A stretch of 64,000 nucleotides of DNA from assembly GCA_000309945.1 (NCBI GenBank), contig CM001633.1:704723-768722 (forward strand). The letters are read 5' to 3'. The stretch is from Leptolyngbyaceae cyanobacterium JSC-12 (GTDB taxonomy: Bacteria > Cyanobacteriota > Cyanobacteriia > Leptolyngbyales > Leptolyngbyaceae). Shown here piece by piece: positions 2,717 to 50,744 of the stretch. Within the stretch, counting starts at the first letter, position 1. The number at the start of each line of letters is the position of its first letter. The translations under genes were made by a program, and so were the position numbers. The notes beneath the pieces were generated by a model. It had not been told where the DNA came from and searched no databases. It was given only the letters and a program-made list of their open reading frames with translations.

Positions 2717-3016
2717 CTAACCAATAAATGTATCTTTAGAACCCACACGGGTAATACCACAACGAACTGGGTCACCCACACGAGCCATCTGACGCCCTTC
2801 GATAAACACTTTAGAAGACCCTCTCAAAATCCGATTCGGGCAAGGGCAGCAACTACCACAACAATTAGTGCAAACACCTCCATTGAGAGTAGCTTGCCGC
2901 CCATTAACAAATACACTACGTGCTCCAGTTATTACCTGCCCATTAGGGCATCGTTTTTTCTTGCAGTTACAAATACAAATAACTGGATCTCCTACACGTA
3001 GCGCATTAATACCCAT
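2717..3016 (-). CDS. PAAR-like tail-tip protein
   Basis: Likely the sharpened tip capping the central spike of a contractile tail, where PAAR proteins help pierce the envelope. The sequence shows the two symmetric PAAR-type half-motifs: INALRVGDPVIC near residues 3-14 and GRQMARVGDPVRCG near 75-88, with VFVNGRQATLNGG and KVFIEGRQ between them. Length (99 aa) fits the family. It is very cysteine-rich (11 Cys, including CTNCCGSCCPC near 48-58), which suggests Cys-based metal binding at the tip rather than the usual His-rich site. It stands in the leftward operon, separate from the plus-strand baseplate genes at 32-45 kb. Confidence 0.8.
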   Translation of the reverse strand: MGINALRVGDPVICICNCKKKRCPNGQVITGARSVFVNGRQATLNGGVCTNCCGSCCPCPNRILRGSSKVFIEGRQMARVGDPVRCGITRVGSKDTFIG

Positions 3017-3018
3017 TA

Positions 3019-3687
3019 TTAACTCTCTAAAACTGCTGTAATTGCTTCAGTTACTTCTGGGTCATCAGACTCCAACTCAATTGTATCTTTTTCATCTTCA
3101 GATAGAACCTGAACAGGTTTATCAACTTTCTCAACTTTGGTTACCTGAATTCCAGGAATCTTGTGCAGGTATTCCGTTAGAATTTCTTCGGACGTAGACC
3201 CAACAAATGCTCGAATGTTGTGTCTAAAGTGAATCAGGTTGGATGCAATTTGATTAAGCTTTCCTTCAATATAGGTATTCTCATCTTCCCTTAGCTGAGA
3301 AGTCCGGTCTAACGTCTGATGTAACAGTGCGACTTCGAGTCTAAGCTTACGCAATTTTTCTTCTGTCACTGACTTTATTTGAGGATCGATGATAGTCAGC
3401 ACTCTTTGTTCGGCTTCTGCCAGTAAGTTGAGAACGGTTTGAAATGCGTTGAAGCGATTAAAAACGTCAGGACCCATAGCGTAGTATTTGATTGCGCTAC
3501 TCTCAAAATCTCTAGGGGAGTTAACCAAAACTAGGTCACTGTGTTGAAGCCAGTGTCTCCCAGCCATGATTTCAATATCTCCGGTTTTTTTAAAAGTAAC
3601 GCTGCTTTCATTCAGCTTTAACGTAGGCTCTACGGCTACTAAAAACTGCCAAGCCATCTTGAGACGGCTAAATAAACGGTTACACAT
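3019..3687 (-). CDS. Hypothetical protein with coiled-coil segment, 222 aa
   Basis: First gene of the leftward operon, 2 bases before the PAAR-like gene. I do not recognise a family. Residues about 85-150 are strongly helical (LLAEAEQRVLTII, VTEEKLRKLRLEVALLHQTL) and should form a coiled coil; the C-terminus is acidic (LSEDEKDTIELESDDPEV). The N-terminal part contains TFKKTGDIEIMAGRHWLQ. No clear Shine-Dalgarno is seen before the start; an internal ATG at 3657 is an alternative. Position next to the PAAR tip hints at a structural or chaperone role, but this is inference. Confidence 0.6.
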   Translation of the reverse strand: MCNRLFSRLKMAWQFLVAVEPTLKLNESSVTFKKTGDIEIMAGRHWLQHSDLVLVNSPRDFESSAIKYYAMGPDVFNRFNAFQTVLNLLAEAEQRVLTIIDPQIKSVTEEKLRKLRLEVALLHQTLDRTSQLREDENTYIEGKLNQIASNLIHFRHNIRAFVGSTSEEILTEYLHKIPGIQVTKVEKVDKPVQVLSEDEKDTIELESDDPEVTEAITAVLES

Positions 3688-3756
3688 GAGCGGTAGTTGT
3701 TTAGGACAATTTCAGTATCACTCACATTGCTCACTTCGTACTACCGTAACTATTAA

Positions 3757-3993
3757 ATGTCTTCTTTAGTAAAGTCTAATCGGAAACGTTTAGCTGAAAT
3801 ACGTCAGCAAACGAACATGACTGCCGCCGAAATCACAGCCAGGTTATTAGATTGCTATGAGCTTGAAGACCTCTCGTTTTTAGTGAGCAGGATACGGCAT
3901 GTTCGAAACGATGGGTTTTTCACACCTAAGCAGATCACTCAGTTAAGTGTGCTTGCTACACAGGTGTCCACTATTCTTAAGCAACTTCACTAA
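3757..3993 (+). CDS. Hypothetical small protein, 78 aa
   Basis: Small helical protein (SNRKRLAEIRQQTNMTAAE, ITQLSVLATQVSTILKQL). It has no membrane segment or recognised motif. It is the first plus-strand gene after the divergent 69-base gap that must hold promoters for both the leftward operon and the late plus-strand block, and it ends 9 bases before the giant gene at 4003, so the two are co-transcribed. No Shine-Dalgarno is evident. It might assist the giant protein; function unknown. Confidence 0.6.
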   Translation: MSSLVKSNRKRLAEIRQQTNMTAAEITARLLDCYELEDLSFLVSRIRHVRNDGFFTPKQITQLSVLATQVSTILKQLH

Positions 3994-4002
3994 CAAAGTC
4001 GT

Positions 4003-7000
4003 ATGAACGAAGATTTAGATATTGAACTAGAGAAGGAGGAGGAAAGTTCTGTACGACCGACAGATGAAAGTGCTATTGAAACGGAATCGCCTGCCAGTCG
4101 TTTTGTAAATGACTTTGAGGATACTCTTAAAACCGGAGATCCCTTTAGACTTGTTCAACGTGTAGCTCGGACAAGCACAGAAGTTTTAGCAGATGCTAAA
4201 CCAGACTCGCGCTCTGGGTTGTTCCCCCTTTCTCAGTCTGCTAACCAAGCAATGCAGTCGATGGGAGAGCGTGTTGTTCAATCTGCTCTTTCCACAGAGC
4301 AACCATCAAGACTTCGGATTTCAGGTACACAAACTTCTCGTCTGCAAGGTTTTACATCTAGAGCACTTGCATCTGATTACCAATCTTTATTGGAACGTCC
4401 AGGTGAGTTTAAGGCTACTTTTTTCCAGTTTCAACAAGAGTCCGTTGTTAGCTCATTATTAAAAAGAACAGACCCAACAACTTTAATAACACAGAGAGCA
4501 GCCTTTACCAGTCCTCGCGCAGATCAAACTACTGCTGAAATTTTACTCGGCAACGAACTCACCTATGCTGCTGGGGCTGCATTAAGATTGCCTACGCACA
4601 ACGTGTTAGGTGTTCAATCTTATGCATCTTTTCACCCTAAAGTAGGCTATGTCGGGGACTCCCAAAAAGGATTCACTGCATTCCTGGGAACTCAAAATAT
4701 TACTCCGGCGTTACAGGGTAACAACTCTCTTGAAACGTTGATGACTTTCACGACACCAGGAACCAGAGCAGTTACTACTAGCCCTACATCTTTTGTAGAA
4801 CAGAGTATTGCTCAAGAAATTTATCAGCTGACAAACTCAATCTCCGACTTGGCTAACCAGGAAGGAGTTTACCGTCCAGGACAACTTAGACGTTATCTCA
4901 CACAAAACCAAGTGCAAAGAAATTTTTTGTATGTGGAGCAAGAGATTCATCAACGTATTACCCAAGCTCTGACTGCTGCTGCATTTAACGCTGCTTCGAA
5001 AAAAGACAAAGTTGTAATCAGCATGGGTGAGATTTCACTCTTATTAAAACAGTCTAAAAACTCCACGTCTCTGCTTCAGGCGATCGCTCAACTCGCTAGA
5101 GAGAACAGGCTAAACATTATTACGGACAGTAAACGGGTTAATAACTTCTTCGATGAGTTACGGTCAAACCCGGTACTATCACATAACCGTGCTCTAGTAG
5201 ACTTGTTGCTTCAGACAGGTTCACTTAAAGTTGCAACTACTGGTTACCAGCATGACAAAACTGTTGCCATTTTTGGAGAGAGTAATCAGCTTCGCTTCTT
5301 TAACGTTGGTTCTGCAAACTTTTCTGCCGATTCTATGACGGCAGTTAAAGACCTTGGAGCCAATCGCGAATACTTTGATAGTGCTCTGGCTATTCTCAAA
5401 CAGCAACCGAATTCATTTGACAACAACGCTCCACTAAACCTAGATGTAAACTTAATGCTAGGTAGTGGACCGTATGCAGACAATCTCAGAGCAGCCCCGG
5501 CTGCTGAAGCATATCTTAAGCATTTAGCTCCACAACTGTATAACCATTACTCAAACTTGTCTGCAGGTTGGTTGCAATCTAGAACTATTTATCACACAGG
5601 TTATTTAGCTGAACGGCGTGCTGATCCAACTAAAGTAGAACAACTTAGGCAAGGTCTTGAAGTACTGTCTCAAGAATTAGGTGGGTTACTAGAAGTAACT
5701 GGACGTTACTCGACTGACCAGGGTAAAGCTACCCAAGTCGGGTTAACAGTTAGAGTTAAAGCACTTGGCTCTTCTTCTGTACAAACAACCCTTAAATTAA
5801 GCGTTGACAGGTATGGCAACGTTATTTTACCTGAGACAAATAAAGTTATTCCTGGGTCTGTATTTGTCAACAAAACTTCACAAGTAAGACGAGTAGTCGG
5901 AAGAGATGTAGCACCTGGCGCGTCTGCTCAATTAACGGGGGTAGAAACTGCTGTTGGTCTGATCGGTACTATCAGTCGAGAACTGAGTTATCAGGCAAAG
6001 TTTGGAATTGTGGACACTCTTTTTGAGAGGATGGGAACGACTCAGTTCCAAACGCTTAAATCTGCGAGTCGAACACTTCTGGCAAAAAGTATTCAGGCAT
6101 CAAATGAGGTTTTCAAAGGAAACCCACAACTTAATTTAGTGAGTCTCCTTTCTGCCTTAAATACTGATGAACTTGATGCTCAATTTGGACCTACATTATT
6201 AAATGCTCAACAGTTTTTAGCTACAGGTGACTCATCTTTACAGCTAACTGACAAGGAAAAACAGCAACGTTTTAAGGCGCTTCAATCTGTATTCTCAGAG
6301 TTTTCAGAACCTAGTAACTGGTACTCAGATAACGTAGATGATGTAGCTGCAAGACGCTTACTCCAAACACTATCAACAGACACTAAAGGTTTATTAACAG
6401 ACCTTAAACTAGCTTTGGTTCTTTCTACTGAAGAGGGTAGAAGACAGTATCAAGCTATTCAGAATACGCAAGCACGTCGTTTAGTCCAGGATCTTACTGC
6501 TCCATTTCTAGCAGCGCATGAGTTAGGTTACTCAGCTATGCAAGGGCAAGCACGTTTGCCTATTTATGCTGAATCTGAGATTTATGACACAAGTACTGCT
6601 TACGGAAAGGTATTAAACTCAGGGTTTCTAAACCCAGCTTTAGTAAAACCAGGTACTAAAGTTGGACAACCTGGACAGTACTTTCGTCCAGTTGGTGCAA
6701 CTTCCCATGCTAAAAAGTTGTCACTACCTGGATTTGGTAATATCCGCCAACTTAATATTATCGACGCTGATATATCCACGGGTGCGGCAGTTACCTATGA
6801 CATTAAGAGACTTTTCTCATCAACGTCTGGTTTAGCCAGGATAGAAAAAGAGCAATACATTCAGCAAATGCACCAGGTGTTTAATAACCTGGGAATTGAA
6901 GCTCCAGTCATAGAAACAGATGAAGTACAATATCTGTTGCCTTTCACAAAAGCTGAACAGATACCTCAACGTTTGAAAAATGTTGTTGGCTCACGCCCTG

Positions 7001-10000
7001 CTTTAGATGTAAACCCAGAGTTAGTGCGAAAGTTAAGGTCTCTTCAACAAGTTAAGCTTGGTGCTTCTTCTCTGTTAGCAGGTAGGTTGCGTGAGGTATT
7101 GCCGCAAACCCAATTTGAGGAGTTAGCAGCTAAAGCAACGCAGGACTTCGCTTCTGTTCAAGAATATTTTCGCTCGTCGGAGTTAGACCCACTTAACACA
7201 CAACGTGGGTTTATCGGACCACGTTCGATGAAACGTGTGGCGATCGTGGGTGGTGTGTCTTTAATTGGGGATTCATCTTATTTGAACTCTGGGTATGAAC
7301 TGTACGCTGGTGATATGCAGCGCATGACTGTAAAAGTTTCTAGTCGCCAGGTCACAAACCAACTTCAGACTCAAGCATTACTTTCCAAGTACCTTGCGCC
7401 CGGAACCACTATATTCAGTGCTCCTGTTACTCTTGCTGATAATGAGTCGTCTAGTTTACTAGCCGCATTACAACAATCTCTCGAAAGTACTGGGCAGGCA
7501 GTCACGGTTACCACGCTACAACGAGCTTTAGAAACTTATGAAAACGGTAAGTTCAAAAACGTTCTTGTCAAAAGGGATGGTTCCAGGTATCGACTTTACT
7601 ATCAAGAAGGTCTTTACTCCCCAACAAAAGATGGGTACGAACGGATAGGGTCATTTGACAAAGATGGATTAATAACAGTTAGAGGCGTTGGTACGCAACA
7701 AGATACTTTGTGGGGTAGTCGTCACCAACCTATAACCTTAAAGTTTCAGGCGTTTAATAAACGGCACCAAGCTGGTATATCCGTTATCACTAGTGCCCCA
7801 TCCATTCAAGTCTCGGATTCGGGCACAATGATTGTTTCAACAGATGTTTTAACAGTATGGGAACCTGGAACAGGGTCCAGACCAACCGGAGCTGGTTTGG
7901 TAAAAGGACCATTCTCAGTTATTAAACCAGAGATCTTCAAAGATATTGATAAACTGGTTTCTCAGAGAACGTCCTTAAAACCTCAAGCACTTGCCAATGA
8001 AAGTTTATATGGGTTATTTGGACACGGACATTTCAAAGGGTTTAACTACGAGACTGGATTATATTTACTTTCTCAGCAAGATACTCGCGAAGCCGTTGCT
8101 CAGTTAAGCGGTCAACAAGTAGCCCAAAGTTTGTCTCTGCTATTTTTAGGTGACGAACAGATTAGGGCAGCGCTTCAAACTCAACTTAAATCGTCAGGGC
8201 TTGACCTAGCCGCTGACGCAATAAGTCACGTAAAAGCGACAGATTTTGCACAACTAAAAAACGGTAAACCTTCTACTGCATTAGGTAGAGTTGCATTAGG
8301 TCTAACTTCTCTCTCAGATTTACCAACGGCTGCACAAGATGCATCAATAGGAAGTCTAGCCTCGGTCAAACAAACGGTACTTCGGGCATTACAGAACGAT
8401 TCCCAAGCTATTCAAGTCTTAGAAACTCAGACTAGAAAATTAATCAATACCGTTATTAATTCCCCTGAGTCTGCAATTCAGTTCTCTTCAGGAGAAGTAG
8501 TTCTAAACGAAAGTAATTTGGTTGCTAGAGGCGCTGGATTACTCGCCCACTTGTCTTTCGTAGGACAGCAGTTATTTAATCCAGCTATTACGCCTGGTCG
8601 CTCAGTTAATAAACTTTACGAGCGAGATTTATCAGATGCTCAAAAGTATATTACAGATGTTGCCTACCGAAATGTAGTAGATACGGTAGCTGCGACTGCG
8701 GGGATGAGTTTACCTGCTCCCTCTCCTAAAAATAGACAAGACATCCAGAGAAAGCTATCGCTTTTACAAGCAATGATTCAGAATGATGTCGTGATCGAAG
8801 ACATCAAAGATATTACTGTTAGCCGATCGCTTGTGCCAACAGGCATGAAAGACGAAGCGGCTATGGAGTATCAATACCTTTTAGGTATGAGCAGTTCATA
8901 TCTAAAAGCATTTACAAAAGTAGGAGGTGGATCTCAGGCAAGTCAAGAATTGCAATCTGCATTTGCGCGATTGTTAGGTTCATTCAGAGTTGATTTGCCC
9001 TCTGCTAACGCACAGTTAGGCTATCGATTAGCCTTACCGGGAGAAGATAGCCAAGCATTTTTCTCAACACTTGCTCAAGACACACAATCGTTACTACTTT
9101 CTTACACAGAGTTAGGAGAGAAGTTAAATCTGGTTCAGTCTTCTATTGAGGAGGTTACGACAGCTAAAGGCAGTACAGCCTTGCGCCGTTTGCAACGCTT
9201 TCAGCGACTTGCAACAGGTATGACCGCTGACGGAACTTCTCAATTGGAAGCAAGAGCTATAGCTGCTAATAAACTTTTCAACTTATCTTACTTTTCAGAT
9301 CAAAAACCGGAAGACTCGAAAGCGGCAAAGCTGCAAGTCTCCCATTTAAGAAAGACCCTAAGTATCCAAAATACCTTTGCGCCTGGTGAATCTGCACTAT
9401 CAATTACAACCCAGGTTGTTAGAAGAGCGTACCAGTCTTATCAAGAAGACCGATTCTTCCGTAAACAGAATGGTCAAATACAAACAAGCTTCCAAAGCTT
9501 TGTATCTGAAGGTTCAGGTGGACGAGTTGCTCAGGCATTGGAAGAAAAATACGGTTTAATAACGGAACTAGCACAGGATTCATTTCGTATCCCTGGTGTT
9601 CCGCTCACGGATGATACTGCAATTCTTGACACTAGGATTGCACAACGAATCCAACGAATTAATGAACGGTCATTAAATTCGATTCAGAACGCTTACGACA
9701 CATCTATATATAAGGAATTTGTTCAAGGTGCTCTCAATCTTGAAAGTAAACTTCAAGTTCAAGCAGCAAACGATCGCTCAAATCAAGTAAGTCGTGTTCT
9801 TCAAGAAATACAAAACACTAAGCAGGTTATCTTACCTCAATTTACGGCTGAAGCAATAACCGAAGGGGAAAATGTAGGACGCTACCGACTTAAGATGCTT
9901 GACCCTGGTGAATACGATCCAACGGTAGGAGTCATGATGGGTACTGACATCCTTCGTCGTGCTCCTCTTTTATTCCCACAATATACAGATGAGGCGTTGC

Positions 10001-13000
10001 GTTATCAGGTTGAGCTTCGACAAAAACTGCTTGAAACCAGTAAAGTCCGAGAGCAGTTGTTGAACCCAGGAGCTACTGTTTCTGAAAAGCAACTCCGGCA
10101 ACTGCAAGATTTACAAGAGACTTTAGAAGGGAGTAGAGCTTCAACTTTACGTTTGCTAGACACAGACTTCACCCGCAAAGCGTTGGGCGATCGCCAGCAA
10201 TTTGAAGGGACAGTAGGTATCGCAATAGGTTCTTTTGCACTTGATGCGACAGAAGCGGTATTGGGACAAAGGTACAACGCATTAGGTTCAACCCGAAATA
10301 CTTTAGCTGTCGTTGAAAACCAATTTCGTTTAGTAGAGATGGCACTTAACAGGTCTTCTAAAACAAGTGCAGTTCCAGCTGAACTACAGCAAACGTTAAC
10401 TAACACCTATGAGTTGACTCGTGCATTAGGTTATAGAACAAATGAAGATCAGGTAAACCAGCAATTCCAGACAGCTCTTGAAGCTGCAGAGCGTAAAACA
10501 TTAACTCGTCAACAACTTGCAGATCTGAGGGTCCAAACGTTAAGTGCTTTAGCAAACATTCCGGCTGAAAGAGTACAGCAAACATCTCCAAATGACCTCG
10601 ACAAGTTATTAAACTTGTCGTCCGGGTCTATCCGTCGAGGTGGTGCCCCCGCTGGCTCTGCCGCTTTAACTGCAGATTCTAACTTTTATGATGTACTTGA
10701 TGTTCAGTCACTACAAGCGAGACTCACTAATGAAGGCAGTGGTTTAATACCTGAGTCTGAACGTTTCAAGACAGGAATGCAGGTACCAGCAGTTGGTAGG
10801 TTGCTAGCCATGTTAGGTGACTTTGATGGAGATGCTTATCAGTTTTTATTAACTGGAGTAGGTGACCATGCATCTCAACTTTCTCATTTACAGAGAGCAA
10901 CTCTGCAATTAGGTCAAAAGTTGGGATTTCTCGATAGACAAATTAATCAGACCAATACTCAAGAGTTGCAGCAAGAGCGTCAAGCGGTTCAACAGCAGTT
11001 TAACGAAGTTAGTCAACAACTTTCTGAACAAGTACAGAAGGTATCTCAGTTTTCTAGCAATATAGACCGCACTCAAAACAGAGCGTTAAAAGATGTCCGT
11101 AAATGGGTTGGATCTTATCTAGCTTTACCTGACTTTATCACTGATGAACAGAGTTCTCTCTCAACTGGAACTCTGATGAGCATGGTTCAGCAAATGAGTG
11201 GAACTATGCCACAAATTGAAGATGCTGCACATCATATTAAATATGCGGAAGAACATCTCAGTTTATTAACTAGTGCTTTTGGTTCGTCAGACTCTCTTAC
11301 GTCTGACCAGTCGGACCCGTCTAATCCTCAAACTCGAAGTAAAATAAACCAACTTCTCCAACAGAATAACTCTCTTTCAGCATCAATGGTCGAGGGAGTT
11401 CTTCGTTACGCTAACCAACAAGAGTCTTTCACTTCAGAAGCATTTGAGTCATCAGCTCGTACTTATCTTGCTCTCCAATCAAATTTGTCTATGACTTTTG
11501 AGCAAGTTAATAAATCGATGAAGAAAGCTTCTGGTCTTATTCTCAACCCATTCGATTTTGAAGGATTGCAAGGTGTTATAGGTCAGGCGGGGACTGAACT
11601 AATCGGAAAGACGTACAACGTTTTAGTTCCGTTGCTTGACCAAACAATGTTGGACCAGGCGCTTGTAACTAGTTTGCAAACTACAGGACAGTCTTCGTTT
11701 AGGTCTGTTATTGACCAAAACTTACAGGCGATGGCTCAAGAATCAACAATTGAAGAAGCAACAGAAATCAATAAACTACGACGCAAGCTACTGACAGAAG
11801 ACCATCAAGGTTTGCAGCAGCAACTTTCAGCTAGATTTAGTGCCGTAACAGGTACTCTTGCTTCTCTCCAACAAATAATTCGAGATGCTCTGAAAGAAAA
11901 ATCAGATAAAGGAATTATTAATGTTTTGCGAGAGGCATCCTACGAGGGTAAACCTCTAGCAGAAGCATTAGAAACTGTTGAAGCTGACTCCCCATTAGAG
12001 GCGGATAAAAGAAGAAGTCAGATTCTTAAACAGGCAGTAATGACTCGTATTGGTCCAAACTTGGGAATTGGTTCTGATTCTCAGGACTATGGTATTACTG
12101 GATTTGGAGCTTTATTAAAGCTTTCTGAATTTGCTATGACAGATTCAGATGAGCAGCTGTATGAAAAATTTGTAACAGAACCCGGTCTTGAAGATACATA
12201 TCGTCAGCAAATTAAAGAAGGCAAAGTAAGTAGCGTTAGTGAATTTGCTGCCTCCCAAGTTTTATCTTTAGTAGAAAGAGCACAGGCTTCGTTTATTTCA
12301 GGGACCTTTTCTTCGTCTACACAAGAGACATTAATAAATCAATTTAGACAGTTTCATAACGATGCTGACCAGTCAAAACTTTCTCCGGTGAACCATCAGA
12401 TTTATCAAGTAATCGATGAGTACGAGCAGCAACGACAACAGCTTAGTGACAATTCTGAACTCACTAGACTTAATAACCGTCTATTGCAAGATACAACCCT
12501 AATTCAAATCCAACATCGTAATAAAGAGCAGCAAGTACTTTCTACGAATCAGTTACAGAACCTCCGAGAATTTTATCTAGAGTCTCAGAAAGTCAGATTT
12601 GATGACGGAGACGTTTACTCTAGAATGCTTGGTGCAAACGTTGATACCTACAATTCCTTTTTGAGAATGCTTCAAAGAGGACAACAACCTACTGCTCAAG
12701 ATGCCCTTTATCTTGCAGAGTATAAAATTAATGCTTTGTCAAACATCTATGATGACGAAGCTAATTTAGCGCCTGCTGATCAGATGAGAGTGGCAAGGTT
12801 GATGGGGCTTCGGGCTGGCAGCGGGTTTATATCAGACAGAGAGCAAGCATATCTCGCACAAGCTCTTACCAGAACTTCAAAAGGTGGAGTGAGTGGCTTA
12901 CAGTCGCTCCAGTCTAGTACAGCTGCAATGACCCAAGGAGTTTTTCCATTAATTGATGAGTTAGAAAAAGAATTCGAATCACCTACACAAGACCGAGCTG

Positions 13001-16362: not shown

Positions 16363-17880
16363 ATGTATCAAGGTCAGAGTAAAGTTCTGGAACTTGTTGA
16401 TGTTCCATTTAATCCTAATAGTCGCCCCCGCAACAAGTTAAAACAGCTAGGCGACTACAAGTCCATTGCTGGACACTACAGACGACCGATGGCTCAACGT
16501 CTGTTGGAATTTGAGCAAATTGCTCTGTTTGACACAACAGTTTCGTATGTTCTCTTTATCCTGATTGACACGTTAATTTCTCTACTGGGTCCAATTGAGC
16601 ATCCTGATAAAGAAATTAGGGATTTCCTTAGAGAAAATATTGATGTGCTAGGTGGATTGCCTGGTGCAAAAAATGAAGATGAGGAAAAGTCTAACAGCGA
16701 TTTTAAGTCGAGTCAGATTTATCAAGCGCTTTACCGAGCAATACACTGTTCATTGTGGGCTGGGTTTTCAACCTCAGAAGTTCTTTACACAGTTAATAAA
16801 GGGCGACTTTTTATTGAAGATTTTCTAACCTACCACCCGGCAACAATCATAGTGAGACCGAATAAAAAAGGTAGGTTAACAGAGGGAGAACCTACTCATG
16901 AACACCGTCCGTCTGGAATATACCAGCAGACTGGACTGTTAAATTACGCTTCCCCCGGTGAGACGCAGTTACCGTTATGGAAAACTGTTCATCTTCCCAG
17001 ACTTTCTTTTTATGGAAACTACTACGGCACTTCCGCAATTGAACCTATTTATAAGTGGCATCTATTAAAAGAAGCTTTCATAGACATGCAAGCGATCGCA
17101 TTAGATCGTAGCGGAACTCCAATTGTTGCCATAACGATTCCAGTGTACAACACCAATCAGACAGAAGTTGACCCAGTTACAGGAGAAGAACGTCAACTTA
17201 CAACTCAAGAGATTTTAGAGCGGCAGACTCAAACTCAAAACTTCGGTGGAGGTGGAAACCTATTACTTTTGCCTCAGTTTGATGAAAAGTTACCTCCTAA
17301 AGCCCAAGTACTAACATCAGGCTCAAACGTCGGTGAATCTTTCGAAATTGGGATTGATCGATGTGACAGAGAACTTGCAAAAGGATTGTGGGTACCTTTT
17401 GTGTTATTTCCCTTTGGCAATAGGGTTGAAGGAATGTCTGATACTTATCGGGCAATGGAACTCTTTAACCGCATAATAGTTAATCTTCACAGGCAGTTTA
17501 TCCACCCATTAGTCTCACAAAGTTTTCATCAATGTGTAAAGCAGAATTTTAGTAGAGAATCCGCAAACATTGCCCCTTGGTTTCCAATACGGCAAACCAC
17601 CCGACCAGAAGACCGTGTGGCATTGATGCAAATGATTTCAGGTTTAACTGACCGTGGTTACTTTAATCCTCTTAACGACCAAGATTGGCTAATGGTGCGT
17701 GAGATGGTAGATGCAATATCTCGTGCGCCAAATGATGTTGACCGCAAATTTATTAATGACATGATTATTGTGCCTAAGCAACCTGCACCGGGCGGTTCCT
17801 CTAAAGGTTCAGTTAGAGGTAAAGGTGTAGGAGCCGGAAGACCAACGGGAACTTCAGCTCCTAAATCCAATAAGAGTTAA
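16363..17880 (+). CDS. Portal protein, Mu gp29-like
   Basis: Forms the dodecameric ring at one capsid vertex through which DNA enters and leaves. At 505 aa it has the Mu-type portal signature: LPRLSFYGNYYGTSAIEPIYKW (about 209-230), a wing region with DRSGTPIVAITIPVY, a Gly-rich NFGGGGNLLLLPQFDE, then ECDRE-like FEIGIDRCDRELAKG and the long C-terminal helix region MELFNRIIVNLHRQFIHPL. The C-terminus is Gly/Ser/Pro-rich and likely disordered. It precedes a gpI-like protease and the capsid gene in the standard Mu-like order. Its last 4 bases overlap the end of the convergent SWIM gene. Confidence 0.8.
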   Translation: MYQGQSKVLELVDVPFNPNSRPRNKLKQLGDYKSIAGHYRRPMAQRLLEFEQIALFDTTVSYVLFILIDTLISLLGPIEHPDKEIRDFLRENIDVLGGLPGAKNEDEEKSNSDFKSSQIYQALYRAIHCSLWAGFSTSEVLYTVNKGRLFIEDFLTYHPATIIVRPNKKGRLTEGEPTHEHRPSGIYQQTGLLNYASPGETQLPLWKTVHLPRLSFYGNYYGTSAIEPIYKWHLLKEAFIDMQAIALDRSGTPIVAITIPVYNTNQTEVDPVTGEERQLTTQEILERQTQTQNFGGGGNLLLLPQFDEKLPPKAQVLTSGSNVGESFEIGIDRCDRELAKGLWVPFVLFPFGNRVEGMSDTYRAMELFNRIIVNLHRQFIHPLVSQSFHQCVKQNFSRESANIAPWFPIRQTTRPEDRVALMQMISGLTDRGYFNPLNDQDWLMVREMVDAISRAPNDVDRKFINDMIIVPKQPAPGGSSKGSVRGKGVGAGRPTGTSAPKSNKS

Positions 17881-20422: not shown

Positions 20423-21733
20423 ATGGTAACAACTATTCAGCCGACGACAACTCCCTATGAATATGTGGGTGATGTGCCTGCACTAGGGTCTTTGCAGCTA
20501 ACTCGTTTAGCTAAATCATTTGAAGAAATAGACTCCCAAGGATTAGAAGATCTTTTTCCAACCGTTCAGTCTGAAGAGCGTACTGTCGTTATTGAGACGA
20601 TGCGTGAAGGTTTAGGAATTATGCCTATCGTTCAGATGGGTGTTCCTGCCGGAAACTTCCTAGAACCTGAGCGTGTAGAAAGACGTTACGTTCAACCCGT
20701 ATTTTTGCGGGAAGACGATTTCGTTGACCAGGCGTTGATTAACCAACTTCGTAAGGTTGGAACTCTCAATGAAAAAGATCCTCCTTTACAGATTATTCAG
20801 CGTCGTGTTCAGCGACTAGTTAATCGCCACAACCGGACTCGAAATTTGCTGCAAGCAATGTGCTTACAGGGAGGTATTAACTACACGGACCCTCGCACAA
20901 AAGCCACAATTAACGTTAGTACTCAAATTCCCACGCACAACTACTTCCGATACGACGGGTGGGATGCAACTCTAGCTTCTGGTGCTGCGATTGGCACTAC
21001 TGGCTACGTTGCAGCTAAAAACTTGACGAACAACAAAGGACGTAAGGAAGCATTACTGTTTACAGATAAATCTGGTCGGGCGGGTGTTCCCTGGTCCCAC
21101 CCACAAGCAGATCTAGTCCGGTGCTTACGTTTTCTACGACAGTATTGCTACAACAGCAACAAAGTGTTGCTCACGGACATGGTTATGTCCCGTGATTTGT
21201 ACACTGTCATTCAAGAGAACGAAATCATTCAAGCTCAGATGGGTAGCGTCGGAGTCATAACGGTTCCAGGTGGAACAAACGGGGCAGTTAATGAAATTGC
21301 AGCAGCTTCGTCTCGTGTAACACCTCCAAGTATCCGCTTTGACAGTGCTGGAGATGTTCAGTCGATTGCAGGGTTGAACATTCGTCTGATCGACTCAATG
21401 TATCGAGATCCTGTCGATAATGTCATTAAAAAGATGTGGCCATCTAACTTGGTGGCTGTGATTGCTAGATCACATCATCAAGACCGTAGTGCATCTCTTG
21501 GTCAGACAATGGAACCAGTTGGAGAATCTCCAGATGGAACTGCAGGTCTGTGGATGCGTACTGGTCCTGACCAAATGCCACCTGCTGTACCTGGTAGAGC
21601 AATGCAGCTTGGCAACTGCTTCCTCCCATACGTAACTTATCCTCAGTGGATTATGTTACTGACCGTTGCCGATACCGGAATGATCGATGAAACTCTCATC
21701 TTGCGTTCTGACCTTGAATACGGCACGTTCTAG
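20423..21733 (+). CDS. Major capsid protein
   Basis: Main shell protein, expected HK97 fold. Assigned from position right after the protease/scaffold gene, length (436 aa), and composition: an N-terminal arm, VERRYVQPVFLREDDFVDQALIN (about 92-114) resembling the E-loop entry of lambda E-type capsid proteins, an arginine-rich spine helix (IQRRVQRLVNRHNRTRNLL) and a P-domain-like C-terminus with NLVAVIARSHHQDRSA and GRAMQLGNCFLPYVTYP. I cannot place it in a named family with certainty. No cleavage site is obvious. Start ATG is 52 bases after the protease stop without a strong ribosome-binding site. Confidence 0.78.
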   Translation: MVTTIQPTTTPYEYVGDVPALGSLQLTRLAKSFEEIDSQGLEDLFPTVQSEERTVVIETMREGLGIMPIVQMGVPAGNFLEPERVERRYVQPVFLREDDFVDQALINQLRKVGTLNEKDPPLQIIQRRVQRLVNRHNRTRNLLQAMCLQGGINYTDPRTKATINVSTQIPTHNYFRYDGWDATLASGAAIGTTGYVAAKNLTNNKGRKEALLFTDKSGRAGVPWSHPQADLVRCLRFLRQYCYNSNKVLLTDMVMSRDLYTVIQENEIIQAQMGSVGVITVPGGTNGAVNEIAAASSRVTPPSIRFDSAGDVQSIAGLNIRLIDSMYRDPVDNVIKKMWPSNLVAVIARSHHQDRSASLGQTMEPVGESPDGTAGLWMRTGPDQMPPAVPGRAMQLGNCFLPYVTYPQWIMLLTVADTGMIDETLILRSDLEYGTF

Positions 21734-27451: not shown

Positions 27452-30271
27452 ATGACACAAGGTATTAGTATTCCCAGGAACGAGTATGCGTTCCCCAATG
27501 TAAGTTTTACAGAATCAATTGTTGGTCCAATTCCCTTTGACGCTCAGTGGAGAAACACCATTGGAGTTGCGGGTGTATTCTCAAGAGGACCGATAGGACC
27601 ATCTCGGATAACGGGACGAAGCGAATTTGCCTACAACTTTGGTGAAGATGACTCAGCCGGGTCGCTTTTTATCCGACAGGCAATGTTGCAAGGTGCAACA
27701 AACTTCGTTGTTAGTCGAGTGATGCCAAACCCTGCACGGTCTGCCGGGTCTATTCACCTTCAATCTGGTACTAACCCAACTACTTCTGAAGCATTTGTTG
27801 CTACAGGTAACGCCCGTACCGTTGGGATGAAATTTGAAGCATCTTACGTAGGTAGCCCCCTTATTCGTCCTGGGGTTTACGTAGGTGCTGCTGTTCGAGT
27901 CGATGCTGCACAACCCCTGTTAATTCCAACTTATCAGGGCATTGGCTACTTTGATTTTCGAGTGATTGAAAAAGTGACAAACGATGTCACTCCTTCTCCT
28001 ACAGTTACCGTAAATATTTCAAATGCTGCAACGACATCAACTTTACAGGTTGTAAGTGCTTCTAGTACGGCTGGTACAGCCATCTTAAATAATGCCAAAC
28101 CCGGTAGAGTTCTTAGGGTTGGTACAGGTGGAACAGGAATTACGTTCAGCTCTGGTGCTGGTCAAGCATACTTACAAGTTGTAAGTTATCCCTTTCAAAT
28201 TTCTGCTGGCACCTACGGTGTTTTAGTAAAAGGACAAGTCACAGGCATCGCTAATGATGAAGGTCCTATTACGATCGAAGCGAGTTCTGTCTCAGACCCA
28301 ACTTATTTTACTGTTGCCTATTCTTATCGCTCAGGAGATGGCAGTGCTCTTCTGTCAAACTTAGCATCTGCAAGAACCTATGAAGGCAACGTTGGTACAG
28401 CTGACGGATTTCTAAAAGTTTCAGTCAACAATAAAAACTATCAAAATTTGATAGTTTACACAGATACGTCTGGGACATTTGCGGAAGTAGACACTGGTAT
28501 TGATATAGCCATCGGAAATCCTGGAGATTCCGGGGCAACAGAACTTGTACCAACCAGCTCGTTCTCTATTCCATTTATGAGAGGTGTCGCTAGTGTTGGT
28601 GAGAATAACACAGCGGCATCTGGATTCCCAAATACTGCATCAGCATTTGCAAGTGGGTTAGCAGCTGTTGAAGTTCTAAAACTGTTACAAAGAGCGATCG
28701 CAACTAACACCATTTTGGTTTCGATGCTTGATGACATCAGCGTAAACGACTTCAACTTGCCTTACTCCCTCACGTTTACTTCAAACTTTTTAGGAGAAGA
28801 AGCTAATCGAGTCTCCTACAAGCTGACTCGAACTGTCGGATCTGGCACACCAACAGATTTACAGTTTCAAGATACTGGGGATAAATACAACACTAGTATT
28901 GCGATGACAGGTGGGCGTAATGCGATGACAAACGCTCAACTGTTCCTGTATGACGTTAATGGTAACGCCTTAGTTCGAATTGACGCTATCTCACCAGGTA
29001 AAACTGGAAATAGCATTCGAGTTACAGTTCGACCGATTCCAGCAGGACAGTTTCGAGTAGAGATTGTAGATGAAACTGGGATTAACTACAGTGTCCCAAT
29101 TAATCCTGAATCTTTCCTTCTCAACAATTACTCTGTTGATCCTCAGACAGGTTTATACCCAGAAACGCTTGATTCTAAACTGATTCGAGCGTATTTCTTA
29201 CCTGTTGTCAACTCAAATGGCCAAGCTATCAACAGCTCTATCTATGCGTTAACTCCACAAAGACTTGCACCCCCTGTTCAATCATTAGCAAATACGTCTG
29301 CCACAACTAATCCCTTACATCCTTCTCACAAAGGTGTTGCATACCTGTCTAATATTTACTTAAAGGGTGGCACCGAACCTGTTGATTATCAAATAAACGA
29401 CCCTGGCGAAAAAGATTACGTTGACGCTGTTCGTCGGTTAGAGGACGCGGATTGTGCAATTGTTGCTTTAGCTGGTGTATCTGCGTCAGACGCTCGATAT
29501 GAGCTAGCAGTAACCGAACTCACAGCTCAAGCTGAAAGGTCTACAACACTTAACGGATTACGAATTGCTGTGATTTCTGCACCTGCTCGTGTCTCAGAAG
29601 CAAGAGCATCCAGTGTCGCTTCTGGACTTTCGTCAGATCGCGTAGTAATTGTGTCTGGTTACTCGACCTTGGTTGGTGCCAGATACTTGGGGGTTAATAG
29701 CATCCCGCCTATTGGTATTTACACTGGGTTACTCGCAAACATTCCCCCTCATGTTTCACCAGCTTCAATTAGTAACGGTCAAGCTGCTGCGGGAGTGCTC
29801 TCAGTTGATTCTAAAAGTACTCCAGAATTTCTAGATGCTCTGACACGAGCACGGTTAGAAGTGTTGCATTATGACTCTGGGTTACGCCTATACAAATTCC
29901 TCAATGGGATAACCACAAGTAATGACCCACAGCGCAAGTATGTGTCCGTCAGACGTATGACTGACCAAATTATTATGGACATGTATCGTAATCTGCAGTG
30001 GGTAAGAAGCGCTCCTAATAACCGGAGTTTACGTGCCAGAGTTGCTTCAGCTTGTGATGCTTATCTCCGTTCACTTCAGCGAGAAGAAAAGATCTACGCT
30101 TGGTCACCCACCATTTGCGATGAGTCAAATAACCCGATTCAAGACATTAGTAATGGTCGATTAAATATTCGACTCACGTTTACACCTATCTACCCGGCAG
30201 ATTTTATCCGGGTGAACGTTGTTCGTGATCTTACTACGGAATTCAGCATCAATACTTCTGCTGGCGCTTAA
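27452..30271 (+). CDS. Contractile tail sheath protein, long form
   Basis: Builds the sheath that contracts to drive the tube through the envelope. The N-terminus has the sheath signature: NVSFTESIVGPIPF, then GVAGVFSRGPIGPSRITG and AYNFGEDDSAGSLFIRQAM followed by FVVSRVMP. The C-terminus has the conserved end: KYVSVRRMTDQIIMDMYRNL (about 830-849), then helix RSLRARVASACDAYLRSLQ and RLNIRLTFTPIYPADFIRVN. At 939 aa it is much longer than common sheaths (about 400-660 aa); the extra mass is a middle insertion of beta-rich Thr/Ser/Gly sequence from roughly residue 150 to 540, likely surface-exposed decoration domains. Confidence 0.9.
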   Translation: MTQGISIPRNEYAFPNVSFTESIVGPIPFDAQWRNTIGVAGVFSRGPIGPSRITGRSEFAYNFGEDDSAGSLFIRQAMLQGATNFVVSRVMPNPARSAGSIHLQSGTNPTTSEAFVATGNARTVGMKFEASYVGSPLIRPGVYVGAAVRVDAAQPLLIPTYQGIGYFDFRVIEKVTNDVTPSPTVTVNISNAATTSTLQVVSASSTAGTAILNNAKPGRVLRVGTGGTGITFSSGAGQAYLQVVSYPFQISAGTYGVLVKGQVTGIANDEGPITIEASSVSDPTYFTVAYSYRSGDGSALLSNLASARTYEGNVGTADGFLKVSVNNKNYQNLIVYTDTSGTFAEVDTGIDIAIGNPGDSGATELVPTSSFSIPFMRGVASVGENNTAASGFPNTASAFASGLAAVEVLKLLQRAIATNTILVSMLDDISVNDFNLPYSLTFTSNFLGEEANRVSYKLTRTVGSGTPTDLQFQDTGDKYNTSIAMTGGRNAMTNAQLFLYDVNGNALVRIDAISPGKTGNSIRVTVRPIPAGQFRVEIVDETGINYSVPINPESFLLNNYSVDPQTGLYPETLDSKLIRAYFLPVVNSNGQAINSSIYALTPQRLAPPVQSLANTSATTNPLHPSHKGVAYLSNIYLKGGTEPVDYQINDPGEKDYVDAVRRLEDADCAIVALAGVSASDARYELAVTELTAQAERSTTLNGLRIAVISAPARVSEARASSVASGLSSDRVVIVSGYSTLVGARYLGVNSIPPIGIYTGLLANIPPHVSPASISNGQAAAGVLSVDSKSTPEFLDALTRARLEVLHYDSGLRLYKFLNGITTSNDPQRKYVSVRRMTDQIIMDMYRNLQWVRSAPNNRSLRARVASACDAYLRSLQREEKIYAWSPTICDESNNPIQDISNGRLNIRLTFTPIYPADFIRVNVVRDLTTEFSINTSAGA

Positions 30272-40741: not shown

Positions 40742-41827
40742 ATGGTTCAACCCAGAACACTAACTGAAATCCAGCAAGAATTTTTTCAGGCTTTGTTGTC
40801 TCAAAGCACTGCACTCAATGATGTGCGTCAAGGTTCTATACTTTTTAGTTTGAGTAGAGCGCTTTCAGCTATTCAGGTGCAGTCAGACCTACAACTATCT
40901 GAGCTGGCAAACGACTACTTTCTAAACACGGCAAGAGGTTCTACTTTAGATCTTAGAGCTTCTGACTTTGGCATCACTAGAAAATCAGGTGTTGCAGCGA
41001 CAGGGTTTGTCTTAGTTATTAGTAGAACTGAAGGTTTTACCTTACAACCAAACACAATCCTGACTGATCCAATTACCAGCTTACAATTTGAAGTAACTGC
41101 TGCTACAGCTATTCCAGTTAGTGCTTTTACCGAAGTTAAAGTACCCATAAAGGCAACACTTGCGGGAGTTTCTGGAAACGTAGAGGCAGGTACAAGACTA
41201 ATTTCACCTGTGTACCCGCAAGGACTATTTACGATCGGGTCGCACAGAACAAGTGCTGGCTCTCCTTGTGGCGACTTACAAAATGGTACAAATGAGGAAA
41301 CTGATGAAGAACTTCGTCGTCGTGTTCAAGTAAATCTTTTACATTCTCGTTCTACGACGGAACAGGCAATTCGCAATGCTCTTTTAGCTGAAATAACTGT
41401 CCCTTGGGTTTCATTGCGTTATCCAAAACCAGGCATTATTCAAATTTGGGTTGATAATCCATCTTCCTTACCTGCTTCTGAGTTGGAACGTTTAAGACAG
41501 ATAGTATTGCCATTACGTCCTGCAGGAATCCCAGTTGTAACCGCTCATCAGGCAACTAGATTACTAACAGATATAAGTATTCAGGTTTACCCAGAAAAGA
41601 CTACAAATTTACAGGAATTGACTGGAAAACTTCAAGGGATAGTTAGTAATTATTTGTTAAAGCTATCACTTGGGCAGACCTTTAGAAAACAGGTTTTATT
41701 AGATGAATTAACTAGAACACTAGGGATTCTTAGTCTTGTGCTAACAAAACCGACGTTTGACGTAGTACCGCAAGCATTAGAAGTTGTAAGAGCTTCCAAA
41801 ATTTTGGTGACTTATGAAACGCAATAA
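40742..41827 (+). CDS. Baseplate J-like (wedge) protein
   Basis: Wedge arm protein of contractile baseplates (P2 J, T4 gp6 type). 361 aa. Family features: the opening RTLTEIQQEFFQALLSQS, ANDYFLNTARGSTLDLRASD (about 59-78) with the ARGxxLD signature, GFVLVISRTEGFTLQPNTIL, VPIKATLAGVSGNVEAGT (about 136-153, the conserved G-x-x-GNV turn), then EETDEELRRRVQVNLL (about 185-200, the conserved D-E-x-x-R-R region). The C-terminal alpha/beta domain (ITVPWVSLRYPKPGIIQIWV) is typical. Position after the gp25-like gene confirms it. Confidence 0.9.
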   Translation: MVQPRTLTEIQQEFFQALLSQSTALNDVRQGSILFSLSRALSAIQVQSDLQLSELANDYFLNTARGSTLDLRASDFGITRKSGVAATGFVLVISRTEGFTLQPNTILTDPITSLQFEVTAATAIPVSAFTEVKVPIKATLAGVSGNVEAGTRLISPVYPQGLFTIGSHRTSAGSPCGDLQNGTNEETDEELRRRVQVNLLHSRSTTEQAIRNALLAEITVPWVSLRYPKPGIIQIWVDNPSSLPASELERLRQIVLPLRPAGIPVVTAHQATRLLTDISIQVYPEKTTNLQELTGKLQGIVSNYLLKLSLGQTFRKQVLLDELTRTLGILSLVLTKPTFDVVPQALEVVRASKILVTYETQ

Positions 41828-48423: not shown

Positions 48424-50142
48424 GTGGCAAAAGATAATCGAATAGAACAACTAGAATTTAATAATCTTCTAGACAATTTAGTACTTGGGGTTGAGGAGCG
48501 ATTAGCTAAGGCGGTTCCAGACACCCTAAATATTCTTGAGTTTTTAGAAGAGGAAGTAGACCTGGGCATCGAGCTGACTTTACAGCAGCGTACTGTCCTC
48601 AAAGCTTTCTATAACTTACCGCTAACAGAGGAAGAAACCTCTGTATTAGAGTACTGGAACGCCAGAGATACATGTACTTGGCACCCTGATGATATTTACC
48701 AAGTACTTGTTTTAGAGGCTGGTCGGCGTTCTGGAAAAAGTTCTTTGGCGAGTATCATCACTGCGTATGAGTTCTATAAACTTTGCCGCTTGGCTTGTCC
48801 TCAGGAACATTATGGAATTTCAAAAAACACGCCTATTTCAATCATCGTTTTAGCAACGACAGCATCCCAAGGTAAAAAGACTATTTTTAAGGCTGTTGTT
48901 GGAGTTATACGCAATACCCGTTATTTCAACCAGCTTGAACAGCAAGGAAGACTCTTCGTTGGTAAAGAAGAGATCAGCTTTGAAGAGAAGCTTCTTTACA
49001 TTTACTCAGGTAACTCCCAATCGGGGGCACAGGTAGGAGGCACTGTTAAGGTGCTTGTTATGGATGAAGTTGCCCGATTCAAAGACCTGGACGGAGAATC
49101 CAATGCATTAGAGTTATGGTCTAACCTTGGTATTTCAACAACTACCTTTGGTCGAGAAGCGAGAAGAGTTGCTATCTCTTCTGCTTGGTACGAAGGTGAT
49201 GCAATCGAAAAGTTATTTGATGCATCAAAAACTGACCCAGTAGCTTTAGGAATCAGAGCTAAATCCTGGGATATGAATCCAATCCATGCTGCCAGGGATA
49301 ATCCGGTAGTTGCGTCAGAGTATATCCGTGATCCTGTTCATGCAGCTCTTGAATTTGAAGGTATTCGTCCTGCAGCTGTAGATGCTTTCCTAAATGCAAA
49401 TGAAGTAAAGGCAGCATTCAAAGGTCGTAGCGTTATTAAAGCATCTAGATACGAAGAAGAGGAGGCAGGGTTTAACCTTGTAAAACTCCGAGTTGAGCAT
49501 ATAGAACCGTTTAATGGAAGTACCGTTTTCCACGTAGACCCAGCTATTGGTACGGACACGTATGCAGCTGCTTTTGGACACAATGAGTTTGATGAAGCTC
49601 ACCGTCAGATTGTTGTAATCGACGGTTTTCTTTGCTGGGAGCCAAATCATAAAGCTCAAGTTTCTATCACTAACGTGCAAGAAGCAATACTTGCAGTCAA
49701 TCGCCGCCGCCCAATCTCTAAACTTTCTGCCGATCACTACAACTCGGTAGAAACTGTGCAACGAATGCGACAGCATGGCATTATGTGCGACATACAATAC
49801 TTTAGCAACAATACACAAGTTGCCATGTATGACCTAGTTCGTATGTTGCTCCATGAACAACGGTTGATACTACCCTACGATTCAATATGGACACCTTTAG
49901 CGTTATCAGAGTTATGTAAGGTACAATTAATTAAAGGGAGAAAAATCGATCACCCTGCTTCGGGAAGCAAAGATCTTTCTGATTGTATAGCAGCTGTGTG
50001 CTGGCAACTTGCGTCTAGAGTTACACGCGACACAGTAGCAAAAAAAGGTGTTATTAAACATGTAAATTATCAATCTGGAAACTCTTCTCTGCAAAACTAT
50101 CAATCTGCACGGGACAGATGGTTTTCATTAAAAGGAAGATAA
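48424..50142 (+). CDS. terL: Terminase large subunit
   Basis: Packages phage DNA into the prohead with ATP and cuts it. 572 aa. Walker A is EAGRRSGKSS (about 98-107, K105), the terminase variant; Walker B is KVLVMDE (D214, E215); a coupling-type segment FGREARRVAISSAWYEGDAI lies near 242-261. The nuclease domain begins FHVDPAIGTDTY with its first acidic residue at D372 and continues with IVVIDGFLCWEP (about 396-407) and a late acidic cluster KDLSDCIAAVCWQL. It starts with GTG 1 base after the preceding stop. Its place at the far end of the structural cluster, away from the portal, is unusual. No small subunit lies beside it. Confidence 0.9.
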   Translation: MAKDNRIEQLEFNNLLDNLVLGVEERLAKAVPDTLNILEFLEEEVDLGIELTLQQRTVLKAFYNLPLTEEETSVLEYWNARDTCTWHPDDIYQVLVLEAGRRSGKSSLASIITAYEFYKLCRLACPQEHYGISKNTPISIIVLATTASQGKKTIFKAVVGVIRNTRYFNQLEQQGRLFVGKEEISFEEKLLYIYSGNSQSGAQVGGTVKVLVMDEVARFKDLDGESNALELWSNLGISTTTFGREARRVAISSAWYEGDAIEKLFDASKTDPVALGIRAKSWDMNPIHAARDNPVVASEYIRDPVHAALEFEGIRPAAVDAFLNANEVKAAFKGRSVIKASRYEEEEAGFNLVKLRVEHIEPFNGSTVFHVDPAIGTDTYAAAFGHNEFDEAHRQIVVIDGFLCWEPNHKAQVSITNVQEAILAVNRRRPISKLSADHYNSVETVQRMRQHGIMCDIQYFSNNTQVAMYDLVRMLLHEQRLILPYDSIWTPLALSELCKVQLIKGRKIDHPASGSKDLSDCIAAVCWQLASRVTRDTVAKKGVIKHVNYQSGNSSLQNYQSARDRWFSLKGR

Positions 50143-50740: not shown

Positions 50741-50744
50741 TGTG
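50711..50744 (+). promoter_or_regulatory. Inverted repeat enclosing the giant-gene GTG start
   Basis: Perfect 10-bp dyad CACATTAAAT / ATTTAATGTG with a 14-base loop. The GTG start at 50742 lies in its 3' arm, so in mRNA the hairpin would cover the start. It could lower initiation or be opened by translation of the leader; alternatively it is an operator or weak terminator. No SD is visible. Confidence 0.5.

Follow-up and report, generated by a model that had tools for sequence, protein, structure and literature searches.

A candidate PLD-headed, single-chain two-barrel RNA polymerase in a predicted cyanobacterial prophage

The giant gene and its homologs

The stretch of DNA analyzed here (64,000 nucleotides, referred to as the window) comprises positions 704723–768722 of one 5.53 Mb contig of Leptolyngbyaceae cyanobacterium JSC-12 and harbors a giant open reading frame (ORF), whose single-chain product of 3311 amino acids (aa) is a homolog of gp080 from phage Ma-LMM01 (Table 1). 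An identical protein is present in IMG/VR on a viral contig of 195,039 bases, and for this reason the window is regarded as part of a predicted prophage. The protein carries DFDGD at residues 2273–2277 within AMLGDFDGDAYQFLL and, at residues 1980–1993, the segment GTDILRRAPLLFPQ. Both had been read correctly in the original prediction, which was made from the DNA sequence alone and proposed that DFDGD may be the magnesium-binding loop of a virion RNA polymerase (RNAP) fused to a PLD domain.

Table 1. Positions in the window of the features of the giant protein and of neighboring virion genes (DPBB, double-psi beta-barrel; pLDDT, predicted local distance difference test)
Feature	Position	Strand	Basis
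Giant single-chain protein, 3311 aa	4003..13938	+	ORF, homology to Ma-LMM01 gp080
PLD-like head with two HKD-type motifs (residues 211-232, 417-439) and PLDc_2 (335-449)	4633..5349	+	Motifs, Pfam match just below cut-off
Conserved block KAEQIPQRLKNVVGSRP, residues 983-999	6949..6999	+	Sequence conservation
Candidate lysine barrel (beta-type, DPBB-B), residues ~1200-1360	7600..8082	+	Sequence evidence only
K1301 (LVKGP), first conserved lysine	7903..7905	+	Pattern, profile
K1345 (FKGFNYETG), second conserved lysine	8035..8037	+	Pattern, profile
Long inter-barrel connector, predicted mainly helical at low confidence	8110..9939	+	Model, mean pLDDT 53.7
GTDILRRAPLLFPQ, residues 1980-1993, directly before hairpin	9940..9981	+	Alignment, L018 model
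Two-helix hairpin in the position of the beta-prime clamp helices, residues ~1994-2060	9982..10182	+	Model of homolog L018
Predicted Asp barrel (DPBB-A) of the beta-prime type, residues ~2058-2290	10174..10872	+	Model of homolog L018
G-D-R-x4-G block at residues 2062-2079, equivalent to a block of beta-prime	10186..10239	+	Profile comparison
R2212-GGAP, counterpart of beta-prime NRAP	10636..10650	+	Alignment across loci
Putative Mg2+-binding catalytic loop DFDGD, residues 2273-2277	10819..10833	+	Motif, conservation, L018 model
GQAGTELIGKTYN, residues 2527-2539, conserved; possible bridge-helix region	11581..11619	+	Conservation
QQIIRDALKEK, residues 2623-2633, conserved; possible trigger-loop region	11869..11901	+	Conservation
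Portal protein	16363..17880	+	Virion module beside giant gene
Major head protein	20423..21733	+	Gene context
Contractile tail sheath	27452..30271	+	Gene context
Baseplate wedge subunit	40742..41827	+	Gene context
Terminase large subunit	48424..50142	+	Gene context

The DFDGD codon pattern occurs at seven sites in the 5.53 Mb genome versus three for a backward control. The six other sites, identified from the sequence and not from a database result, lie in RpoC1 (one), FG-GAP-like repeats (three), a GlmU-like protein (one) and one other protein. Since five of these carriers look non-polymerase, the bare motif is weak evidence and not diagnostic.

The first relatives found were gp080 (3562 aa, annotated as hypothetical; PHROG 31006, unknown function) and an environmental protein of 3360 aa. 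Scans of viral collections, together with named phages, then provided 19 homologous loci holding the DFDGD region, including one of the Ma-LMM01 kind and one of Microcoleus phage My-WqHQDG. Excluded from this number were L014, which is limited to the N-terminal part, and contigs that duplicate or nearly duplicate counted ones (L008–L011, L019, L020, L022–L024, L028–L034, L037, L038, L040, L041, L058, L059, L061–L070, L075–L082, L086, L088, and L089). L083–L085 were counted separately despite their close kinship, L010 and L021 both contain the gp080 region, and among the matched Microcystis phage records Ma-LMM01 alone was translated. Against 388 genomes of the class, the window query had a single match, its own genome. 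In another scan four of 388 genomes matched; the three matches outside the own genome (G200, G203, and G329; E 7e-5 to 2e-4) contain no DxDGD in open frames of at least 150 aa and were not counted as homologs. Two scans of genome contigs yielded no homolog, nor did the window query on plasmids, and residues 1–2000 of the giant protein matched no phage record.

The original prediction had named the conservation of DFDGD as a test, and GD[FY]DGD is kept in all 19 loci, at an identity to the window protein of 14–47% where computed. Judged from these sequences, the conservation is not due to chance. An Arg is located 57–64 residues upstream of DFDGD in every locus and is followed three to four positions later by a Pro in 18 of them (Leu in L016); three homologs have an additional Pro at +2. 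In the window protein this element is R2212-GGAP, 61 residues upstream of DFDGD. A pair of lysines, in the constant settings K(G)..P and K-x-[FY] followed by G or H, is present approximately 830–1600 residues upstream in 18 of the 19 loci (14 recognized by pattern and four by profile). The sole locus without them, L074, is truncated at the 5' end. The first lysine occupies a single column for 12 of 12 sequences in one alignment. A profile of the G-D-R block ([RK]-x4-G), built from 13 members, recovered two of the six members that had not been used (L060, E 2.2e-9; L087, E 1.1e-4). The conserved blocks GQAG..LIGKTYN and QQ.IRDALK.K are situated at distances that would be plausible for a bridge helix and a trigger loop, respectively.

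The stretch KxxQxxQRLKN (residues 983–993, within window positions 6949–6999) is among the most conserved parts across the homologs. In L035 the giant gene is split into ORFs at 2777–7177 (1467 aa) and 7316–13873 (2186 aa) with the break just before the first lysine motif, which may represent a natural split, an intron or a sequencing error.

Predicted structure of the DFDGD region

For residues 1815–2120 of the compact homolog encoded by L018, AlphaFold2 (26 rows) returned a model with a mean pLDDT of 75.7 and a predicted TM-score (pTM) of 0.51. The strands follow an order that agrees with a double-psi barrel and flank the DFDGD loop; a two-helix hairpin precedes them. In a Foldseek comparison with the PDB, the best 50 of 619 matches (E up to 10) are by title all RNAPs or transcription complexes and span bacteria, plastids, archaea, eukaryotes, and phage AR9, whose non-virion RNAP (7s01_d) is among these 50. 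With VIA-align (993 chains compared) the best 50 entries are again exclusively RNAPs or transcription complexes, at Z 8.1–8.8, a range in which by the program's own caveat the score can reflect a common arrangement. The barrel alone aligns over 99 residues with 8him_A and over 100 residues with 8qep_A, both at 3.9 Å. The matched chains were taken as largest subunits from chain length and letter. In the Escherichia coli chain 8t02_J, model residues 75–274 pair with 262–475, and the DFDGD of the model (258–262) falls within one residue on the DFDGD of beta-prime, which we take to be residues 460–464. The hairpin (model residues 74–101 and 108–140) superposes on what we likewise take to be the beta-prime clamp helices. 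Among 289 matches to predicted viral proteins (BFVD), E 1e-3 is reached by two, nudivirus LEF-9 as the best (E 1.2e-4) and an unnamed protein, and 20 of the best 50 rows are named DNA-directed RNA polymerase. Archaeal PolD is absent among the best 50 Foldseek and VIA-align rows from the PDB, which excludes nothing.

This structural result carries force because all listed PDB rows represent one type of enzyme, on which the motif falls in register. The RNAP-type, beta-prime-like double-psi barrel that had been proposed is thus supported by the predicted fold of a homolog, and by alignment to L018, on which the assignment for the window protein rests, residues ~2058–2290 very probably form such a barrel. 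Structure prediction had also been suggested for the window protein itself, whose own model is too poor to test for a barrel; it gave unrelated proteins as matches, whereas the L018 model gave polymerases.

Two details of the original prediction need revision. GTDILRRAPLLFPQ had been likened to the sequence that precedes the catalytic loop in beta-prime. It aligns with L018 model residues 59–72, directly before the clamp-like hairpin, and the true Arg-Pro counterpart of NRxP is R2212-GGAP. An insertion had been postulated between GTDILRRAPLLFPQ and the loop; this idea holds in the altered form of a longer spacing between the G-D-R block and R2212 (150 residues in the window protein vs. 58 in L018).

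A coincidental DFDGD, for example in an EF-hand-like loop or another acidic loop of some different fold, appears extremely improbable. The occurrence of DFDGD in several other, unrelated proteins encoded by this genome, the lack of a barrel in the model of the window protein, and structural scores that are individually weak would be in line with such an origin, but the motif is conserved over 19 loci, and in both PDB comparisons the best 50 rows are RNAP or transcription-complex chains with the motif in register.

Comparison with known RNA polymerases

The best-matching fold is that of the cellular largest subunit (beta-prime, Rpb1), which shares the order of a GKR block, Arg-Pro and DFDGD as well as a clamp-like hairpin before the barrel. 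Cellular RNAPs, however, consist of separate subunits, whereas the giant protein is one chain and has no significant sequence similarity to them outside short motifs. The profile search that had been recommended against known polymerases remained at a probability of at most 10% in hhalign (RpoC1, crAss, and P23-45), although the G-D-R block stood in register: the best local alignment with cyanobacterial RpoC1 comprises this block (without DFDGD) at a pairwise P of 0.0033, versus 0.045 for a reversed control. The crAss polymerase likewise fails against RpoC1 with the same method, and the failure for the giant-protein family is therefore not telling.

The virion RNAP of phage phi14:2 (gp077 in KC821624, 2180 aa), which we take from its length to be gp66 of the literature, is also a single chain and adjoins giant genes annotated as structural by tandem mass spectrometry. 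It has DFDID after R-I-P, versus D[FY]DGD in the giant-protein family, and the profile match is not significant (hhalign probability 0.8% and 0.3%), so that a similarity to the crAss-like virion RNAP family was not found. Phage phi14:2 is short-tailed, whereas the phage considered here is contractile-tailed.

Another parallel is offered by gp96 of Thermus phage P23-45, a proven virion RNAP within a giant protein, in which the polymerase is fused to the tail tape measure (PMC10770324). Its authors faced a comparable case, in which DFDGD lay in a giant virion protein for which no similarity to other proteins could be detected, and then demonstrated activity (PMC10770324). The window protein resembles gp96 in that DFDGD is found in a giant protein of a virion gene without detectable RNAP similarity; gp96 has R-N-P upstream (FRNPVMG...GVDFDGD). 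Differences are that gp96 is clamp-less (PMC10770324) and part of the tape measure, whereas in the window protein a PLD-like head and a clamp-like hairpin are present and the connector is much longer. YonO is also an RNAP in one chain, with ~100 kDa (PMC5467207), and was likened to the giant protein by description only. Jumbo phages of the phiKZ/AR9 type have a pair of virion and non-virion enzymes (PMC7598289), which are split over several subunits, unlike the giant protein. Reviews mention polymerase relatives in cyanobacterial mobile elements (PMC7598289) and YonO-like enzymes in some phages (PMC7824862). In the openly licensed literature, to the extent accessible, no description of the giant-protein family as polymerase was found.

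A number of observations weigh against the assignment as a two-barrel RNAP. Neither the Pfam scans of the members tested (whole proteins and five barrel fragments) nor PDB sequence searches list any RNAP, and hhalign does not exceed the probability given above. Its DFDGD block hardly beats the reversed control against RpoC1 (P 0.033 vs. 0.045), and in a global-mode run the blocks were not paired. The AlphaFold2 model of residues 1190–2389 of the window protein (17 rows; pLDDT 53.7, pTM 0.30) contains no barrel and matches mainly helical and coiled-coil proteins. In the L018 model, which covers one barrel only and a region with 22% identity to the window protein, the local pLDDT is low at DFDGD (block means 57 and 63) and around the Arg-Pro loop (49–66). 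All Foldseek rows from the PDB lie above E 1e-3 (best 6.3e-3), with TM-scores, taken by query length, of 0.22–0.30 only. The root-mean-square deviation in longer VIA-align alignments is 8.4–13.6 Å, which makes the placement of the hairpin relative to the barrel loose. The Pro lies at +3/+4 from the Arg instead of +2 as in beta-prime, the first lysine of L021, L035, L036, and L060 is about three columns off in one alignment, and the G-D-R profile misses L074 and L083–L085. The lysine barrel and the candidate bridge-helix and trigger-loop blocks are proposed from sequence conservation and not from structure. Our confidence is slightly lowered by the low TM-scores and by the low local pLDDT at the DFDGD and Arg-Pro loops.

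A structural or DNA-channel protein derived from an RNAP, which kept the fold and lost catalysis, would agree with the giant, insertion-rich chain among structural genes and its lack of significant similarity to known RNAPs. We consider it quite improbable, because the would-be catalytic residues are conserved (GD[FY]DGD in 19/19, the lysines in 18/19 loci) despite low overall identity. The giant protein is, with good probability, an active RNAP.

PLD-like head, genomic neighborhood and a second candidate

A PLD head, as originally proposed, is plausible: PLDc_2 matches the first 566 residues at E 5.6e-6, with 26.7 bits versus a cut-off of 27, and two HKD-type motifs begin at residues 211 and 417. 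PLDc_2 was not listed in the Pfam scan of the full-length protein or in the N-terminal pieces of four homologs. One regular expression detected at least one HKD-type motif in 10 of the 19 loci.

Downstream of the giant gene follow genes for an endolysin, the portal, the major head protein and the tail sheath, then the baseplate wedge and the terminase. The presence of sheath and baseplate wedge genes confirms the contractile-tailed phage that had been assumed. In the 18 loci searched for synteny (L085 was left out), a portal gene was detected near the giant gene in 13 and orf15195 in 15. The giant gene and the portal gene have the same direction in the window, L013, and L074.

An ORF of ~5284 aa, which starts at window position 50742 and runs to 63998 and on to genome position 771318, encodes an M23 peptidase and a weak match to a cell-wall hydrolase in its last part and is the probable tape measure protein with a tail lysin. 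Since this separate giant ORF with an M23 peptidase exists downstream, a fusion of the giant protein to the tape measure is unlikely. Upstream of the window, a prophage ORF of 1109 aa (L012:202-3531, minus strand) has no Pfam family above the cut-off and no DxDGD.

In Ma-LMM01, the hypothetical protein gp064 (L010:31334-36355, 1673 aa) contains EGQVIGIQRTPMG with RTP and, in addition, EGDADGDQ, which look beta-prime-like by eye and resemble the pair of KEGDIAFTFRNPVMG and DFDGD in P23-45 gp96. Its relative in Microcoleus phage My-WqHQDG (L099) retains RTP and GDTDGD. The gene adjoins the early genes of Ma-LMM01, gp054–gp063 (PMC5780444). No Pfam family and no PDB relative were found for gp064, hhalign gave 0.3% against RpoC1, and a search for a relative in the JSC-12 genome, itself uninformative, gave none. 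These motifs suggest that gp064 is a candidate for a non-virion RNAP partner, in parallel to P23-45, which also has a second, non-virion RNAP.

Fold and motifs would be identical for a genuine two-barrel RNAP that is not packaged and, being made in the cell, transcribes middle or late genes. Such an enzyme would be consistent with the orientation of the giant gene, which is opposite to the portal in 11 of the 13 portal-bearing loci, and with the openly licensed literature as far as searched, in which no virion proteome naming the giant protein was found. We regard it as unlikely: the size, the PLD-like head in 10/19 loci, and the nearby portal (13/18) and orf15195 (15/18) fit the packaged polymerases of crAss-like phages and P23-45, and Ma-LMM01 has with gp064 a separate candidate for the non-virion role. 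By analogy with these phages we are inclined to assume that the giant protein is carried in the virion.

Discussion

The giant protein is probably a single-chain two-barrel RNAP with a PLD-like head that would be carried in the particle, reach the cell along with the DNA and serve early transcription; the central idea of the original prediction was probably right as to the fold. We place the DFDGD family among the two-barrel RNAPs of phages. In the proposed mechanism the DFDGD loop, in the fold predicted for the homolog, would bind the catalytic Mg2+, and a second barrel at residues ~1200–1360, suggested by its sequence, would supply the two conserved lysines. The long connector ending in the clamp-like hairpin would join the two barrels, so that the lysine barrel could complete the active site. 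Packaged as in crAss-like phages and P23-45, the protein would leave the particle with the DNA and transcribe the initial set of phage genes ahead of, or independently of, the host polymerase, and the PLD head may act on DNA or membrane at entry.

Ma-LMM01 carries an integrated element with a family A/T7-like polymerase (TV-Pol), which has a different fold (PMC2579912). The genome of MaMV-DH01 is stated to be without an RNAP, and this phage is said to rely on host transcription (PMC9927357). For Ma-LMM01, a transcriptome study reported promoters of the sigma70-like type in every class without a motif specific to the phage, which weighs against the proposed reading; the same study left open how three expression classes originate from similar promoters (PMC5780444).

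We tentatively put forward that Ma-LMM01-type cyanophages and their relatives may carry a further lineage of virion RNAPs, PLD-headed, single-chain, with a clamp-like hairpin, and delivered through a contractile tail, which in Ma-LMM01 and the Microcoleus phage may be paired with a second two-barrel enzyme of the gp064 type. If true, phages so far regarded as fully dependent on host transcription would follow a two-polymerase program, the statement that MaMV-DH01 lacks a polymerase (PMC9927357) would be overturned, and the question of the three expression classes of Ma-LMM01 (PMC5780444) would become directly testable. A new lineage of virion two-barrel polymerases with unusual architecture would bear on the evolution of RNAPs and on the passage of large enzymes through phage tails. 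Phages reported without a polymerase of their own, including those that attack bloom-forming cyanobacteria, may thus carry one, perhaps in the particle.

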